From a virus, in the IMG/VR virus record IMGVR_UViG_3300046334_000021, positions 1-38,181 of that record: DNA of 38,181 nucleotides; one strand, 5' to 3'. Made by a program: the position numbers and the translations under genes. Positions 1 through 38,181 of this stretch are shown in pieces. The stretch's first letter is position 1. Each line of letters opens with the position of its first letter. The notes under the pieces were generated by a model, which saw only the letters and a program-made list of their open reading frames with translations, made no database searches and was not told where the DNA came from.

Positions 1-71
1 TTACTCAAGCGCCTCATATACCAATAGCTGAAAGATTAAAGATGTTAAAAGAGGCTGCCAATGCCCACTAA
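1..71 (+). CDS. 3' fragment of replication initiator gene
   Basis: These bases encode the last 23 or so residues of the replication protein whose full copy lies at 37091-37942. The DNA is identical to 37872-37942 and ends in the same TAA stop. It is cut by the window edge, not by a mutation. Once the circle is closed this fragment and the right-hand copy are the same gene. Confidence 0.9.
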   Translation, partial: TQAPHIPIAERLKMLKEAANAH

Positions 72-288
72 AGACGAATGCAAAAAAATAATCAGCAATT
101 TAGGCTGGTTATGCGGTTGTAGTCCTCGCCTCATAGCAACACGCCTCTTGAGTGAAGACGATAAACAAGATATGGTTAACGGAGACTTGACCATAGAGTC
201 ACTAGAATGTGGTGTAAAAGCCTGGATGAAAGCCGGAATGCCTGATTATGCTCATGGACATACCGAGCCAATGAAGAAGCCTTTTTAA
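61..288 (+). CDS. Hypothetical protein, 75 aa (duplicate of the right-end copy)
   Basis: I do not recognise the family. The product is small and mixed-charge, with a Cys pair in 'LGWLCGCSPR', a predicted helical middle and a basic C-terminus ending 'EPMKKPF'. The ATG overlaps the end of the replication gene by 11 bases, as expected for a co-transcribed gene. The right-end copy (37932-38159) differs by six bases but only one residue, Q to K. That substitution pattern indicates purifying selection, so the gene is probably functional. Confidence 0.75.
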   Translation: MPTKDECKKIISNLGWLCGCSPRLIATRLLSEDDKQDMVNGDLTIESLECGVKAWMKAGMPDYAHGHTEPMKKPF

Positions 289-305
289 CTAATGGATGAG
301 ATACG

Positions 306-506
306 ATGCAAACTGGAATTGTAAAATGGTTTAACGAAGCAAAAGGATTTGGATTTATAGCAAGTGAGGGAAAAGATTTTTTTGTGTATTTCAAAGAGAT
401 TCAAGGGAATGGATTTAAAACCTTGAAAGAAGGCCAAAAGGTGCAATTCACTGCCGGAACGTCACCTAAAGGCGCATGTGCAAAAGAAGTGAGTGTTACT
501 TCCTGA
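306..506 (+). CDS. Cold-shock domain protein (CspA-like)
   Basis: A 66-aa single-domain cold-shock protein, the usual length for this family of single-stranded nucleic-acid binders that melt RNA structure. The RNP1 motif 'KGFGFI' is at residues 13-18. An RNP2-like segment 'FFVYF' is at 25-29, with Tyr where His is more common. The N-terminus '[15 protein letters not shown]' is typical. It follows the 75-aa gene by 17 bases and its 3' end overlaps the convergent gene 888-496 by 11 bases. It probably assists translation or transcription read-through during infection. The role in this phage is inferred. Confidence 0.93.
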
Positions 507-25612: not shown

Positions 25613-25643
25613 AGGGAGACGTTCTGCGCTCCCTTCTTTATTT
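25613..25643 (+). terminator. Terminator between unknown gene and partition locus
   Basis: AGGGAG (25613-25618) and CG (25620-25621) pair with CG (25627-25628) and CTCCCT (25629-25634), with a single bulged A and a TTCTG loop. TCTTTATTT follows. It would insulate the partition locus from the upstream lysozyme unit. Confidence 0.7.
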
Positions 25644-25656
25644 CAAAATATCTTGA

Positions 25657-25712
25657 CATCAAGACATCAATACATCAAGATTCCTTTGTTTCAAAACATC
25701 AAGGAATCAAGA
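25657..25712. repeat. Phased 8-bp repeats upstream of parA (candidate centromere/operator)
   Basis: Five copies of CATCAAGA or a near match lie on one 8-base grid: 25657 (CATCAAGA), 25665 (CATCAATA), 25673 (CATCAAGA), 25697 (CATCAAGG) and 25705 (AATCAAGA). A 16-base spacer, two units long, separates the first three from the last two. A consensus -35 TTGACA (25653-25658) overlaps the array, which runs to two bases before the parA ATG. Ribbon-helix-helix partition proteins bind tandem 7-8 bp repeats of this kind as centromere and operator. Direct binding is inferred. Confidence 0.8.
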
Positions 25713-25713
25713 A

Positions 25714-26346
25714 ATGATTATTTCAATATTAAATCAGAAAGGCGGTACAGGTAAAACCACGCTGGCCGTGAATATGGCTCGTGAATACACCAAGCGCAAC
25801 ATTAAAACTTTGCTTGTTGATTCGGACGGTCAAGGCTCTGCTTTACGCTGGCACGAAGAATCAGGAGGGGAACTAATTGATTTAACCTGTTTGCCGGTTA
25901 CTACCCTAGATAAAGATGTGATGAAATTCAATGACAGATATCACCGAATTATTATTGATGGTGTGCCTAGCGTTTCCCCGTTGACAGTGTGTGCGATTAA
26001 AGCTGCTGATGTTGTTTTAATTCCCGTTCAACCCTCTCCTTATGACATTTGGGCTACAGAAGACTTGGTACGTCTTGTAAAACAACGTCAGGAGTTAAGT
26101 GATGGGAAACTTAAAGCTGCGTTTGTAGTAAGCAGACGAATTAAAGGAACTAAAATCGGAAATGAAATTGTCGAGCATCTCAGGTCTTTTGAATTGCCTG
26201 TATTTTTACATGGAACATATCAAAGGATTGAATATGCAAAGGCAGTCCAAGAGGGAAGAACTGTTTGCGACATACGAAGTGAAGCAGCTCTTGAAATGAT
26301 TGCAATCGTTAACGAATTGGAGATTTTCATAAATGGCAAAGATTGA
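25714..26346 (+). CDS. parA: ParA-family partition ATPase (type Ib-like)
   Basis: A 210-aa ParA/MinD-type ATPase. The deviant Walker A 'KGGTGKTT' is at residues 9-16, with signature Lys9 and catalytic Lys14. The A' box 'LLVDSDGQGSA' (33-43) and Walker B 'IIIDGVP' (79-85) follow. It lacks the N-terminal HTH extension of type Ia ParA, so it fits the short type Ib class that pairs with small RHH proteins. It uses ATP-dependent nucleoid binding to position plasmid copies. AAGGA inside the last repeats serves as ribosome-binding site. A phage-encoded ParA points to plasmid-like maintenance. Confidence 0.92.
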   Translation: MIISILNQKGGTGKTTLAVNMAREYTKRNIKTLLVDSDGQGSALRWHEESGGELIDLTCLPVTTLDKDVMKFNDRYHRIIIDGVPSVSPLTVCAIKAADVVLIPVQPSPYDIWATEDLVRLVKQRQELSDGKLKAAFVVSRRIKGTKIGNEIVEHLRSFELPVFLHGTYQRIEYAKAVQEGRTVCDIRSEAALEMIAIVNELEIFINGKD

Positions 26347-26539
26347 TTCAGGCTTAGAGTTTGATAAAGAAAAAAATCATAAAAATATGACGGATTTAAT
26401 GAAGAACAAGGACACAAAGCAATATCCGTTGAGAATTCCTGCCAGCCTCTATAAAAAGGTGCGAATTAAGCTCATGCATGAAGATAGAAACCTTCGAGAG
26501 CTGATCCTCGATATGCTTAATCTTTACATCAAGGAATAA
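26333..26539 (+). CDS. Ribbon-helix-helix partition/centromere-binding protein
   Basis: A 68-aa protein overlapping parA by 14 bases. A polar, probably flexible N-terminus (1-28) precedes an RHH fold: strand 'KQYPLRIP' (29-36), helix A (37-49) and helix B 'NLRELILDMLNLYIKE' (53-68). The flexible tail plus RHH layout resembles ParG and omega proteins, whose tails stimulate the cognate ParA. It should bind the 8-bp repeats on both sides, repress the operon and form the partition complex. The family assignment is a pattern judgement. Confidence 0.78.
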   Translation: MAKIDSGLEFDKEKNHKNMTDLMKNKDTKQYPLRIPASLYKKVRIKLMHEDRNLRELILDMLNLYIKE

Positions 26540-26558
26540 AGACATCAAGACATCTTGA
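26527..26558. repeat. Second set of phased 8-bp repeats after the RHH gene
   Basis: CATCAAGG (26527), AATAAAGA (26535), CATCAAGA (26543) and CATCTTGA (26551) continue the same 8-base grid and share the upstream array's consensus. The array spans the stop codon of the RHH gene. A site on both sides of the par genes suggests a bipartite centromere, or one centromere and one operator. Confidence 0.68.
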
Positions 26559-26566
26559 AATATTAG

Positions 26567-26590
26567 GTCTGATTCTGTGTATAATCAGAC
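26567..26590. terminator. Inverted repeat between convergent genes (possible terminator)
   Basis: GTCTGATT (26567-26574) and AATCAGAC (26583-26590) form a perfect 8-bp stem with an 8-base loop, located exactly between the RHH gene and the stop of the convergent minus-strand gene. Neither side has a clear T-tract, so it may be a weak bidirectional terminator or a protein-binding site. The loop contains TATAAT. Confidence 0.45.
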
Positions 26591-26878
26591 TTAACGTTCA
26601 TTGTGTATATCTTCTATAACTCGCATTAAATCAGGATTGTTAAAAGAGGCATATACAATCTTCTGCCATTGCTCCCAAGAAATTTGTTTTACACGGTCTG
26701 GGGAAAAAACTCGAATATGGATTCTTTGTGGTTTTTTCTCTAAAGCGCCGACTGTTAATATTTGATTGTACTCAACGCCCTTCAACAATCTTAAAATGTC
26801 CTTTTCATCCAAAGGAAAAGGAACTTCGATTGGTCTTTCTTCTATAGGCTCTCTATATTTTTCAAACACATTATCCAT
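26591..26878 (-). CDS. Hypothetical protein, 95 aa
   Basis: Last gene of the recombination operon, separated from it by the structured non-coding stretch. The product is soluble and mixed alpha/beta with an acidic N-terminus ('MDNVFEKYREPIEERPIEVP') and 'RIHIRVFSPDRVKQISWEQW' in the middle. AAGGA lies about 9 bases before the ATG. No family recognised. Confidence 0.65.
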   Translation of the reverse strand: MDNVFEKYREPIEERPIEVPFPLDEKDILRLLKGVEYNQILTVGALEKKPQRIHIRVFSPDRVKQISWEQWQKIVYASFNNPDLMRVIEDIHNER

Positions 26879-26881
26879 AAA

Positions 26882-27104
26882 ATTTTATCCTTAATAGGGC
26901 GTGTCTCTCCACGCTGTCACGATTTATCTTTCCTGCCGGACTAGAATCGTTTAGCCCTGATTAACGGGGAAGCTCCGCCTTGCAATTTACTGGTGACACT
27001 CATTGCAAGATTCCTATCTGGTTTAAATGACCAGCGCACCGGAAAAATATCGCTGGGAACGCCGTAACGCTCCCGAGTACTGTTTCACCGTCATGGGCGA
27101 TCAG
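26882..27104 (-). ncRNA. Structured non-coding region, candidate small RNA or 5' leader
   Basis: This 223-base gap in the recombination operon has no credible gene and is richer in G+C than its surroundings (91 of 180 bases in 26941-27120). Read on the minus strand it folds locally in several places. An 8-bp stem GGGAGCGT/GCGTTCCC, with two wobble pairs and a UACG tetraloop, lies near 27078-27059. CTTGCAAT/ATTGCAAG, a perfect 8-bp stem, lies near 27010-26980. GCGTG/CACGC lies near 26917-26902, just before the next gene. It could be a leader controlling the 95-aa gene, a processed sRNA or a protein-binding site. I recognise no known RNA family or tRNA. Confidence 0.45.
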
Positions 27105-33746: not shown

Positions 33747-34042
33747 GCAAACCGCTATTATTTCGCTTTCATAAGGGAATGCTTGAAGAATCCATGCAAA
33801 CCATGAGAGAAATTTACTCATTTGAATCCTTAATTATGATGATTAATTGTGAATGGGATTTTATGCCTGTAGCGATAAGAGTTTCGCCATACGTGTATGA
33901 TGACCGCATTAATTGGGATACTCATATTGTCACAGCAAAATTTAAAGGGTTAGAAGATTCAGGATTTATGCCAGTAGGATTTTTAAATCGTGATCCAGGA
34001 TGGTCACATCAACAGGGAGAAGTAAATGAAGTTGAAGCATAG
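33743..34042 (+). CDS. Hypothetical protein, 99 aa
   Basis: Begins 'MSKPLLFRFHKGMLEESMQT' at an ATG overlapping the upstream stop (ATGA). An earlier in-frame start at 33704 lies inside the preceding gene. The product is mixed alpha/beta with 'YVYDDRINWDTHIVTAKFKG'. The gene overlaps the SPFH gene by 17 bases. No family recognised. Confidence 0.65.
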   Translation: MSKPLLFRFHKGMLEESMQTMREIYSFESLIMMINCEWDFMPVAIRVSPYVYDDRINWDTHIVTAKFKGLEDSGFMPVGFLNRDPGWSHQQGEVNEVEA

Positions 34043-34916
34043 GATTCAAGCGGGATTAATTGGCGGCGTAGTATTTATTAGCGCTGTTTATGTTGGCTGT
34101 AATTTGACACGAGTACCAGCCGGTTATCGAGGCGTTATCGTCAATCTTTATGGCTCAGATAAAGGGGTTTCCGAACAATCGGCAGGAGTAGGGCGCTATT
34201 ATCTTGGATGGAATAAAGAAATGTATCTGTTTCCTACATTCTTGCAAAACCGCTCCTGGAATAAAGAGCAAGCCATCACCATGCAAACTTCGGAAGGTTT
34301 AACGATTACAACCGATGCTGGCATAACCTACCAGATTGAACCTGATAATATTGTCAAAGTGTTTACAAAATACCGACTAGGAATTGAAGAAATAACAAAT
34401 ACTTTTCTTCATAACATGGTGCGAGATGCTATGAATGAAGTGGCAAGCAGAATGACTGTAGACCAAATTTATGGCTTGAAGAAAGAGGAATTTATCACCT
34501 CTGTTAATGCTATTGTTATTAAAGAAGCCGCCAGCAACGGCATAAACGTCGATAAAATTTATCTTATCGGTAGTTTTGTACTGCCTCCCTCTGTTATGAA
34601 TTCCATTAACACCAAAATTGAGGCTTCCCAAAATGCTGTTAAGGTTGAAAATGAAATCGCTACAAGTCGCGCCGAAGCTCAAAAAACCATCGTTGAAGCA
34701 AAAGCCCGTGGAGAACGACAAATCATTGAAGCCGAAGCAAACGCCAAGCAAATTACCTTAAATGCTGAGTCGCAAGCTAAAGCAAATAAAATCCTGGCTG
34801 ATAGCTTAACCCCTGAATTTGTCCAGTACCAGGCAATTCTCAAATGGGATGGTCAATTACCAACCACAAACGCCTCAAATGCAATGCCATTTATTAACAT
34901 AGGGAAGAAATCATGA
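34026..34916 (+). CDS. SPFH/prohibitin-like membrane protein
   Basis: A 296-aa protein with an N-terminal membrane segment (about residues 9-25), a SPFH/Band 7 domain (about 30-200, 'VPAGYRGVIVNLYG', 'TTDAGITYQIEPDN') and an Ala/Glu-rich coiled coil (about 205-265). This is the layout of HflC, HflK and prohibitins, which form large rings around membrane proteases such as FtsH. Cys25 lies at the end of the hydrophobic segment but without a good lipobox. GGGAG precedes the ATG. A phage copy may protect phage proteins from FtsH or affect entry or exclusion. Those roles are inferred. Confidence 0.88.
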   Translation: MKLKHRIQAGLIGGVVFISAVYVGCNLTRVPAGYRGVIVNLYGSDKGVSEQSAGVGRYYLGWNKEMYLFPTFLQNRSWNKEQAITMQTSEGLTITTDAGITYQIEPDNIVKVFTKYRLGIEEITNTFLHNMVRDAMNEVASRMTVDQIYGLKKEEFITSVNAIVIKEAASNGINVDKIYLIGSFVLPPSVMNSINTKIEASQNAVKVENEIATSRAEAQKTIVEAKARGERQIIEAEANAKQITLNAESQAKANKILADSLTPEFVQYQAILKWDGQLPTTNASNAMPFINIGKKS

Positions 34917-36851: not shown

Positions 36852-37091
36852 ATGTCGAGATCAAAAGAGAACTATAATCACGTCTCACGCTCTGATTATA
36901 TCCGCTATCTATATCGTGAAGGTCAACGCAAAGGCATTCATAAACACCCTGATTTTTATTCTGAAATAATCAAATTCGTCGATAGTGACGAAGGTCAAGA
37001 ATCGTTAAAAAAATTCATTCAATTAGACCCTAAATCCTTGGGTATCGAATCCTCTACACCTTGTCAAATAATAAAAAGAGCATTTTCATAA
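36852..37091 (+). CDS. Hypothetical basic protein before the replication initiator, 79 aa
   Basis: Starts 'MSRSKENYNHVSRSDYIRYL' with GAGGG about 9 bases upstream. Earlier in-frame starts at 36822 and 36831 are possible but lack a site. It is basic at the N-terminus, with an acidic middle ('YSEIIKFVDSDEGQESLKKF'). The stop overlaps the replication gene start (TAATG). It may be a replication accessory or regulator. Not recognised. Confidence 0.62.
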   Translation: MSRSKENYNHVSRSDYIRYLYREGQRKGIHKHPDFYSEIIKFVDSDEGQESLKKFIQLDPKSLGIESSTPCQIIKRAFS

Positions 37092-37942
37092 TGAGTATAG
37101 ACGCAACCAATTGGGCGTGGAGCCAGCAAGACGTTACATCATCAGAAAAGTTAGTCTTATTATCTTATGCAGATAGAGCCGGCGAGACGCACGAGGCTTG
37201 GCCATCCTGGAGAAGACTATCAATTGATACTTGTTTGGATAGAAAGACCGTTGCAAAAGTTTTAGAAACATTACAGAACAAAGGGAAAATTATAAAGACA
37301 GGCGAGAAGAAAGGCCAAGTCTATGTCTATCGGTTAATGGGCGTAACCAGTAGAGAAACAAAAGAACAGAAAGAACAAAAACCGAAGAAAAAGTTATCCA
37401 CAACCAGTCCCAAAAATGGTACTGGTAGTAAAAATGGAACCAGTCCCAAAAACGGGACACGTACCAGTCCCAAAAACGGTACTACTACCAGTACCAAAAA
37501 CGGAACACGGAATCATCAGTTGAATCCCCAAAGGAATCCAAAGGGGGAAAAACTGCTTTTTTCTTCTTTTTTTTCTTTAACAGAATTTTTAAAATACATA
37601 AAAGACCTAATAGCTGAGACTGGAAAGCAACCCCTGGAGCTATTAACCGATGAAGTAGCTTTTTATGCTGATAAATTCAAGGTTAAACGTGACCCTGTGG
37701 AGTCTGTCCACATGGCAATTAATCTGATTAAGAAAAATAACTGGAAAACTCCACATGGATTTAAGGGCATTACTTCTCAATCCATCAGGGAAAAAGAGGA
37801 ACAGCACGAGAGAGCAAAGCAAGAACAAATCCAAAAAGACGCACAAATAGGAAAAGCAATCAAAGAAGCCATTACTCAAGCGCCTCATATACCAATAGCT
37901 GAAAGATTAAAGATGTTAAAAGAGGCTGCCAATGCCCACTAA
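37091..37942 (+). CDS. Replication initiator (lambda O-like, winged-helix)
   Basis: A 283-aa protein. Residues about 14-85 form a winged helix-turn-helix ('SSEKLVLLSYADRAGETHEA', 'LSIDTCLDRKTVAKVLETLQ') of the kind at the N-terminus of phage replication proteins. Residues 105-140 are a low-complexity repeat ('TSPKNGT' units) encoded by iteron-like DNA. The C-terminal half is helical and basic and may contact the helicase or its loader. ATG 37091 is coupled to the upstream stop. An earlier start at 37061 lies in that gene. As in lambda O, the origin appears to lie inside the gene. Confidence 0.83.
   Translation: MSIDATNWAWSQQDVTSSEKLVLLSYADRAGETHEAWPSWRRLSIDTCLDRKTVAKVLETLQNKGKIIKTGEKKGQVYVYRLMGVTSRETKEQKEQKPKKKLSTTSPKNGTGSKNGTSPKNGTRTSPKNGTTTSTKNGTRNHQLNPQRNPKGEKLLFSSFFSLTEFLKYIKDLIAETGKQPLELLTDEVAFYADKFKVKRDPVESVHMAINLIKKNNWKTPHGFKGITSQSIREKEEQHERAKQEQIQKDAQIGKAIKEAITQAPHIPIAERLKMLKEAANAH
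37394..37402 (+). promoter_or_regulatory. Consensus DnaA box at the putative origin
   Basis: TTATCCACA at 37394-37402 is a perfect match to the DnaA box and abuts the first iteron with no gap. Its position inside the replication gene, next to iterons and an AT-rich tract, makes it likely to be functional. Confidence 0.72.
37403..37506 (+). repeat. Iterons of the putative replication origin
   Basis: Four clear 20-base copies of ACCAGTCCCAAAAACGGTAC or close variants start at 37403, 37439, 37463 and 37487. A shortened copy starts near 37424. The last three are spaced by exactly 24 bases, or eight codons. Each has ACC at the left and GGT-like ends at the right, giving weak dyad symmetry as in lambda iterons. 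The initiator's own winged helix is the expected ligand. Confidence 0.82.
37547..37610 (+). other. AT-rich tract, likely DNA unwinding element of the origin
   Basis: By my count 48 of 60 bases in 37551-37610 are A or T, including a pyrimidine run TTTTTTCTTCTTTTTTTTCTTT. It lies about 45 bases after the last iteron, still inside the initiator gene. The order DnaA box, iterons, AT-rich tract parallels the lambda origin. The tract would melt first during initiation. Confidence 0.65.
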
Positions 37943-38181
37943 AGACGAATGCAAGAAAATAATCAGCAATTTAGGCTGGTTATGCGGCTGTAGTCCTCGC
38001 CTCATAGCAACGCGCCTCTTGAGTGAAGACGATAAAAAGGATATGGTTAACGGTGACTTGACCATAGAGTCACTAGAATGTGGTGTAAAAGCCTGGATGA
38101 AAGCCGGAATGCCTGATTATGCTCATGGACATACCGAGCCAATGAAGAAGCCTTTTTAACTAATGGATGAGATACGATGCA
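37872..38181. repeat. Right copy of terminal 310-bp near-identical repeat
   Basis: Matches bases 1-310 at 304 of 310 positions without gaps. It ends just inside the cold-shock gene's start (ATGCA). The substitutions relative to the left copy fall at 37955, 37988, 38012, 38037, 38039 and 38054. See the left copy for interpretation. Confidence 0.95.
37932..38159 (+). CDS. Hypothetical protein, 75 aa (right-end copy)
   Basis: Second copy of the gene at 61-288, with six base differences and one residue change (Lys instead of Gln at residue 36). It overlaps the replication gene by 11 bases. In the circular map it is one locus, read before the cold-shock gene. Function unknown. Confidence 0.75.
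   Translation: MPTKDECKKIISNLGWLCGCSPRLIATRLLSEDDKKDMVNGDLTIESLECGVKAWMKAGMPDYAHGHTEPMKKPF

Follow-up and report, generated by a model that had tools for sequence, protein, structure and literature searches.

A cassette of ParA and a probable RHH protein between two octamer arrays

The window analysed here, a stretch of 38,181 bases from IMG/VR virus record IMGVR_UViG_3300046334_000021, carries a two-gene cassette bordered by short repeats (table 1), which an initial annotation had read as a complete-looking type Ib partition locus with a short ParA bearing a deviant Walker A motif. The first gene bears this out: its product has the length (about 200 aa), the deviant Walker A (NQKGGTGKTT, with KGGTGKT at residues 9–15) and the lack of an N-terminal HTH that characterize type Ib ParA proteins, scores 217.6 bits against NCBIfam NF041546 “ParA family partition ATPase” (cut-off 180), and matches phrog_164 (1e-42) as well as ParF of TP228 (4dzz; E 1.6e-22). 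Homologs that are 62–93% identical are found in 20 or more viral contigs.

Table 1. Positions, in the window, of the genes and sites of the putative partition cassette.
Feature	Position	Strand	Details
parA, ParF-like Walker-type partition ATPase, 210 aa	25714..26346	+	ATG 25714, stop 26346
Likely RHH centromere-binding protein (putative parB/parG analogue), 68 aa	26333..26539	+	overlaps parA by 14 bp
Codons 30–36 (QYPLRIP), predicted RHH beta strand	26420..26440	+	R34 codon at 26432–26434
Last RHH codons TAC ATC AAG GAA TAA (YIKE stop), also octamer sites	26525..26539	+	
Upstream octamer array, putative centromere/operator	25640..25711	.	TCWWGA cores at 25651, 25659, 25675, 25707
Downstream octamer array over RHH stop, putative second centromere half	26518..26557	.	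cores at 26545, 26553; TCAAGG at 26529
TTGACA, likely −35 of the par operon, inside the upstream array	25653..25658	+	61 bp before parA start
12-bp hairpin after the cassette, terminator-like	26563..26594	+	also downstream of the array in L003, L004, L007, L019

The second gene proved harder to classify. Searched as a single sequence, its product had no match in Pfam, NCBIfam, or PDB, and against PHROG it returned weak matches only, to “Arc-like repressor” families (2e-4). A profile built from 33 members recovered omega (E 0.0025) and a CopG-type RHH protein (0.0031), omega/CopG-type matches lying at 0.0025–0.0037 and RHH matches as a whole spanning 0.0025–0.04, whereas ParG (1p94) remained below the threshold (E 0.24); of the two families that the initial annotation had proposed for comparison, omega is thus recovered and ParG is not. 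The AlphaFold2 model obtained with these 33 relatives presents a beta-alpha-alpha succession (strand 28–36, helices 37–49 and 54–67) with a pLDDT of 75 (about 74–82 in the fold part) and a pTM of 0.38, values to be read knowing that this is a monomer of an obligate dimer, for which a poor model is expected. Foldseek found nothing significant with it (E above 6), and a model based on 19 relatives reached a pLDDT of 69 without a fold match, the secondary structure being better with 33. Together, the weak profile scores and the modest monomer model make an RHH fold likely, such that the overlapping 68-aa gene of the initial annotation stands as described and its fold as the likely one. Residues 1–33, the tail of the protein, comprise no arginine, implying that a ParG-type arginine finger is missing; Lys12 in this tail is mostly conserved across relatives.

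The arrays that adjoin the operon on both sides are the repeats expected of a type Ib partition system, and the phased octamers announced on an 8-base grid are confirmed. All cores fall on one 8-base phase within each array, lag-8 self-identity amounts to 0.594 upstream and 0.600 downstream (0 and 1 of 5,000 dinucleotide shuffles were as high, respectively), and self-identity peaks at lags 8, 16, and 24 only, with 0.19 upstream and 0.27 downstream at lag 7. For lag-8 periodicity, they are the best (upstream) and second-best (downstream) 72-bp windows of the whole genome. The octamer itself, first given as CATCAAGA, is better described as a TCWWGA core followed by two looser bases (NN), and the upstream array begins earlier than proposed, from about 25640.

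As initially noted, a TTGACA hexamer lies within the upstream array, where it is likely a good −35 candidate: TTGAC is found 57–61 bp before the parA ATG in 16 of the 26 relatives described below, in both of their motif classes, including those whose octamers do not contain TTGAC. A sigma-70 consensus scan reported no promoter over this array, because the −10 is poor. By analogy with ParG and omega, the RHH protein may regulate its own operon from there. An Rfam search of the par region of the window gave no match. Further downstream, a 225-bp intergenic stretch (26880–27104), which follows a convergent 95-aa gene, looks hairpin-rich on the minus strand and likewise has no Rfam match.

Conservation of the layout and covariation of protein and repeat

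To place this cassette among its relatives, we compared 26 loci, namely the window, 24 distinct cassettes of its clade from viral contigs and one from the “Gammaproteobacteria bacterium BBSC-SA01” assembly, a contig identical to the window not being counted separately and more distant relatives serving as comparison. The RHH gene sits in the same place in 26 of 26, and in nearly all of them, on both sides, lag 8 is either the best lag or above nearly all shuffles; it ranks first on both sides in most of the 26. Upstream, the same periodicity extends to the distant relatives phiHAP-1, pRA2, and a Pleionea plasmid, which makes the 8-bp pitch a property of the wider family. In most of the 26 relatives, both arrays persist with this pitch and the downstream one overlaps the RHH stop, so that the earlier proposal of an upstream array acting as operator and centromere at once, within a centromere made bipartite by the downstream array, is probably correct. 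Neither half seems to be always needed, since L004 has almost lost its downstream array and L010 its upstream one.

Two further observations concern the neighborhood and the outskirts of this family. Noncoding elements of 110–150 nt resembling tRNAs occur at L012:3009–3134 and, in similar form, downstream of par in L008, L010, L018, L020, and L122; they display a 6–7-bp end-closing stem followed by a CCA-like ACCA (GGGATGG...CATCCCACCA; GGCGCAG...CTGCGCCACCA) and T-arm-like hairpins, seemingly in tandem, and have no Rfam match at its thresholds; the structure common to four of them includes 5 compensatory pairs. Besides, the distant ParA–RHH pairs of L055, L056, L064, L136, and L137 are accompanied by other 8-bp arrays (ATTTTTTG-, AATATTTT-, GTGCTTTT-, and ATGATCAT-like), which are possibly further specificity classes.

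The strongest evidence, which the initial annotation missed, is the covariation of protein and site across relatives. Counting cores in the 110 bp upstream of parA and the 90 bp around the RHH stop, we found that Arg34 goes with TCWWGA in 14 of 14 loci (strand QY[PTS]LRIP, 3–8 cores each), whereas Asn or Lys at this position (strands PYL[FL]NIP, SYLLKIP, and QYTLKIP) goes with TAWWTA in 12 of 12, each with 7–24 TAWWTA and 0–1 TCWWGA. Pooled, the octamers read T-C-W-W-G-A-Y-A in the former class against T-A-W-W-T-A-W-A in the latter, the main change thus affecting two symmetric positions, 2 and 5. No column of the RHH alignment other than residue 34 separates the motif classes perfectly, and residues 32 and 30, on the same face of the strand, are among the next-best columns. 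This spacing is that of residues i, i+2, and i+4, which contact bases in the RHH protein AmrZ, whose complex with DNA has been solved; the third of them, Arg22, binds guanine (PMC3325190).

The octamer letters appear to have changed while the grid mostly stayed. The upstream core phase relative to the parA ATG is the same in 11 of the 14 Arg loci, and 9 of the 12 Asn/Lys loci, whose TAWWTA arrays read in both phases (4 bases apart), show either that phase or one 4 bases off; downstream, the phase relative to the RHH stop behaves in the same way. There, the change reaches the protein itself: the window and its near relatives end in YIKE, L005 and L016, from the other motif class, end in YINE (TAT ATA AAT GAA TAA), and residue 67 separates the classes with a mutual information (MI) of 0.80. 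Given that the downstream array spans these last codons, residue 67 looks dictated by the DNA site.

It could be argued that this covariation merely reflects shared ancestry or base composition, AT-rich lineages having drifted to AT-only arrays and happening to carry Asn or Lys. Base composition does not account for the two motif classes, whose locus GC is equal (0.32–0.41 vs. 0.33–0.43). As to ancestry, the classes also differ at several further residues, and in the tree of the short RHH protein the Arg loci are rather clustered, with only 2 changes needed; on the ParA tree, however, the class is scattered, changing 6 times on the best tree, with 3 changes forced by well-supported branches. 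The switch therefore looks recurrent relative to ParA and partly a matter of module exchange, and the truly independent switches in predicted RHH specificity are few. A tree-corrected pairwise sign test yielded 3 well-supported independent pairs, all in the predicted direction (p 0.25), a number of pairs with which this test cannot reach significance.

Individual loci argue further against ancestry. In L048 (QYTLKIP), Q30 and T32 are kept and position 34 alone departs from the Arg class, and the array is of the TAWWTA type. The residue-34 rule was written down before further loci were fetched; three additional scans yielded almost exclusively loci already included in the comparison, and the only new clade member among them, L154, again has Lys in an otherwise Arg-class strand and fits the rule with 0 TCWWGA and 9 TAWWTA. 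Among more distant loci, L052, with Arg at the strand position, has a different octamer, GCWWGC, whose positions 2 and 5 are still C and G, whereas L134, with Asn there and a ParA 47% identical to that of the query L049, has few TAWWTA and misfits the rule. On this basis, we hold the shared-ancestry explanation to be unlikely, although it retains some weight.

A related kind of exchange can be read from the comparison of L019 with L003. Identity between the two is 88–100% in the stretch that starts near −540, includes the upstream array and ends around parA codon 20–25; it falls to 47–85% (mostly under 71%) across the remainder of parA and the RHH tail and is 85–97% in the RHH fold and where the downstream array begins. 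On this identity profile, L019 is a locus that has exchanged its ParA and RHH tail and kept its predicted DNA-binding domain together with both arrays. The exchanged unit would be the part contacting ParA and the kept unit the part contacting DNA, which fits the division of labor in ParG, where the tail acts on ParF and the RHH domain binds DNA (PMC7308502).

From the covariation and this exchange, a picture of centromere switching in place emerges, to which we give about even chances. The replacement of Arg34 by Asn or Lys, along with changes at residues 30 and 32, would go together with a change of both symmetric base pairs, those at positions 2 and 5, in all octamers upstream and downstream, the ones within the end codons of the RHH gene included, with pitch and register staying as they are; new incompatibility groups could have arisen repeatedly in this manner, and ParA plus tail on the one hand and RHH fold plus arrays on the other would be separately exchangeable.

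A phage genome with plasmid traits

The first and last 310 bases of the window (1–310 and 37872–38181) match with 6 mismatches (98%) up to both termini, suggesting a genome of ~37.9 kb that is circular or terminally redundant. The repeat being inexact, two strain variants of such a genome may have been merged in this record. The window encodes terminase, portal, scaffold, major capsid, and tail genes, as well as exonuclease VIII-like, RecT, Cro-like regulator, and initiator-like proteins; in its early region, a 296-aa protein (34026–34916) has a membrane-anchored look and matches phrog_200 (“lipoprotein,” 2e-72).

No tyrosine or serine recombinase (PF00589/PF00239) was found within the window, and among 16 related phage records a tyrosine integrase occurs in none, a serine recombinase in 1, and a portal gene in 15. 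The window thereby combines the genes by which phage-plasmids are recognized, portal, capsid, and terminase alongside an initiator-like protein and par, with no integrase found. In the BBSC-SA01 assembly, par and portal lie together on one separate 36-kb contig, a hint of an extrachromosomal replicon. The absence of integrase, the portal gene, and this contig lend some support to an extrachromosomal prophage state, and the phage of the window is probably a phage-plasmid, inherited like a plasmid.

With regard to replication, no initiator common to the 16 related records was found. The initiator-like gene of the window (37061–37942; phrog_6643, 9e-43) is present in only 2 of them, par and portal being shared, and replication modules seem to be swapped within this phage group.

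Known systems and the probable function of the locus

The layout of the cassette is already known from other phages. The mycobacteriophage RedRock is described as having two parS loci of eight 8-bp repeats each; its parABS is reported to stabilize plasmids, the phage to have no integrase, and its ParB to diversify in a way that avoids incompatibility (PMC7157519). In GU339467, we could see the RedRock arrays, with the parB stop marking the beginning of the downstream one; in both RedRock and Benvolio, the arrays reach into the parB stop region, so that the overlap with the RHH stop is not unique to the window. Like the window, RedRock thus combines a phage-borne small ParA (also phrog_164), a small ParB labeled Arc-like by PHROG, 8-bp arrays on both sides, and a genome without integrase. 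The differences are nonetheless considerable: RedRock ParB is not detectably homologous to the RHH protein of the window (hhalign probability 0.3%) and falls in a different PHROG (2639, against a weak 582), mycobacteriophage ParAs are, at best among the matches listed, about 32% identical to that of the window, the RedRock octamer is about TCGAGTAG, and the hosts there are actinobacteria.

Among plasmids, ParF–ParG–parH of TP228 offers a related ParA, an RHH partner with an N-terminal tail, and repeats made of boxes and AT-rich spacers, with parH described as upstream only (PMC7308502); ParG is moreover the sub-threshold match mentioned above, and its tail, unlike that of the window protein, has an arginine. 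The Psychrobacter plasmid pP62BP1 likewise pairs ParA with a ParG-domain protein and carries 8-bp direct repeats adjoining parA, these being seventeen identical AATACTCA repeats on one side of a plasmid rather than a phage locus (PMC3346939). In the delta–omega–parS system of pSM19035, which includes the best profile match, the RHH protein binds head-to-tail short repeats over promoters, yet these are 7-bp WATCACW repeats and the genes do not form one operon (PMC9499535), in contrast to the window, where lag 7 is low. The initially claimed difference from the omega repeats is hence real, but the octamer is not new on that account, and the idea of a new centromere class was rejected after comparison with RedRock, which has the same layout, and pP62BP1, which has 8-bp repeats, the spaced boxes of TP228 parH pointing the same way.

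With ParA proteins 44–47% identical to that of the window, the Vibrio phages VP882, MAR, and VHML and the Halomonas phage phiHAP-1 also have a second small gene overlapping parA, and phiHAP-1 shares the 8-bp periodicity upstream; they differ in that no downstream array was detected at these four loci and the RHH-like protein is longer, and, in VP882 and phiHAP-1, in the protelomerase beside par. As for changes of specificity, pMET1 encodes a ParG homolog, yet its repeats show no relation to the TP228 ones (PMC2262945), and repeat change between related proteins is thereby already known. Codivergence of an RHH adaptor and its repeats, which sets incompatibility, has been measured in Clostridium perfringens ParMRC, a type II system with an actin-like ParM, whereas specificity in the present family is deduced from sequence (PMC9426499). 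The correlation between residue and bases and the division into two modules appear to be new; we found neither of them described in the open-licence literature searched.

Overall, we consider it very probable that the cassette is a type Ib parABS locus belonging to a temperate phage, one that is probably maintained outside the chromosome at low copy number. The family matches, the recurrence of the arrays in relatives, and the covariation speak for this reading; the weak RHH profile scores and modest model, the arginine-free tail, the loci in which one array is nearly lost, the small number of independent pairs, and the lack of a shared initiator in the records searched weigh against it. Alternatively, the arrays could be operators only, at which an Arc-like RHH protein represses its own operon, and a true centromere would lie elsewhere or not exist at all, as the position of the upstream array over the likely −35 box and the PHROG label of the nearest families might invite one to think. 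This is improbable, for nearly all relatives retain the second array, which, lying where the last gene ends, is unable to block initiation, the genome has no other conspicuous octamer array, and ParA belongs to a partition equivalog family. Least probable is that the arrays are replication-origin iterons served by a CopG-like copy-number regulator: small RHH proteins do regulate copy number in some plasmids and these phages have no shared initiator, but the RHH gene overlaps and travels with the partition ATPase and the initiator-like gene of the window is 11 kb away. Comparable arrays in RedRock are, moreover, dispensable for replication (PMC7157519).

If the cassette is indeed a partition locus, RHH dimers would bind the 8-bp units through their two-stranded sheet, residues 30, 32, and 34 reading the octamer and Arg34 contacting the G of TCWWGA, and would coat both arrays into one partition complex. 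Bound to the upstream array and the −35 box, they could repress the par operon, while their N-terminal tail would stimulate the ATPase activity of nucleoid-bound ParA and so move phage-plasmid copies apart. A strand and its arrays changed together would then found a new compatibility group.

Octamer arrays of this kind could help to spot phage-plasmids in metagenomes. More generally, the family bears on how a centromere-binding protein and dozens of scattered sites can change specificity while keeping their function. It provides natural pairs that differ by a single strand residue and, in each site, by two symmetric base pairs, and in one case the motor half has been exchanged. With purified proteins and synthetic arrays, one could test the recognition code, count the compatibility groups, and trace how one group passes into another.
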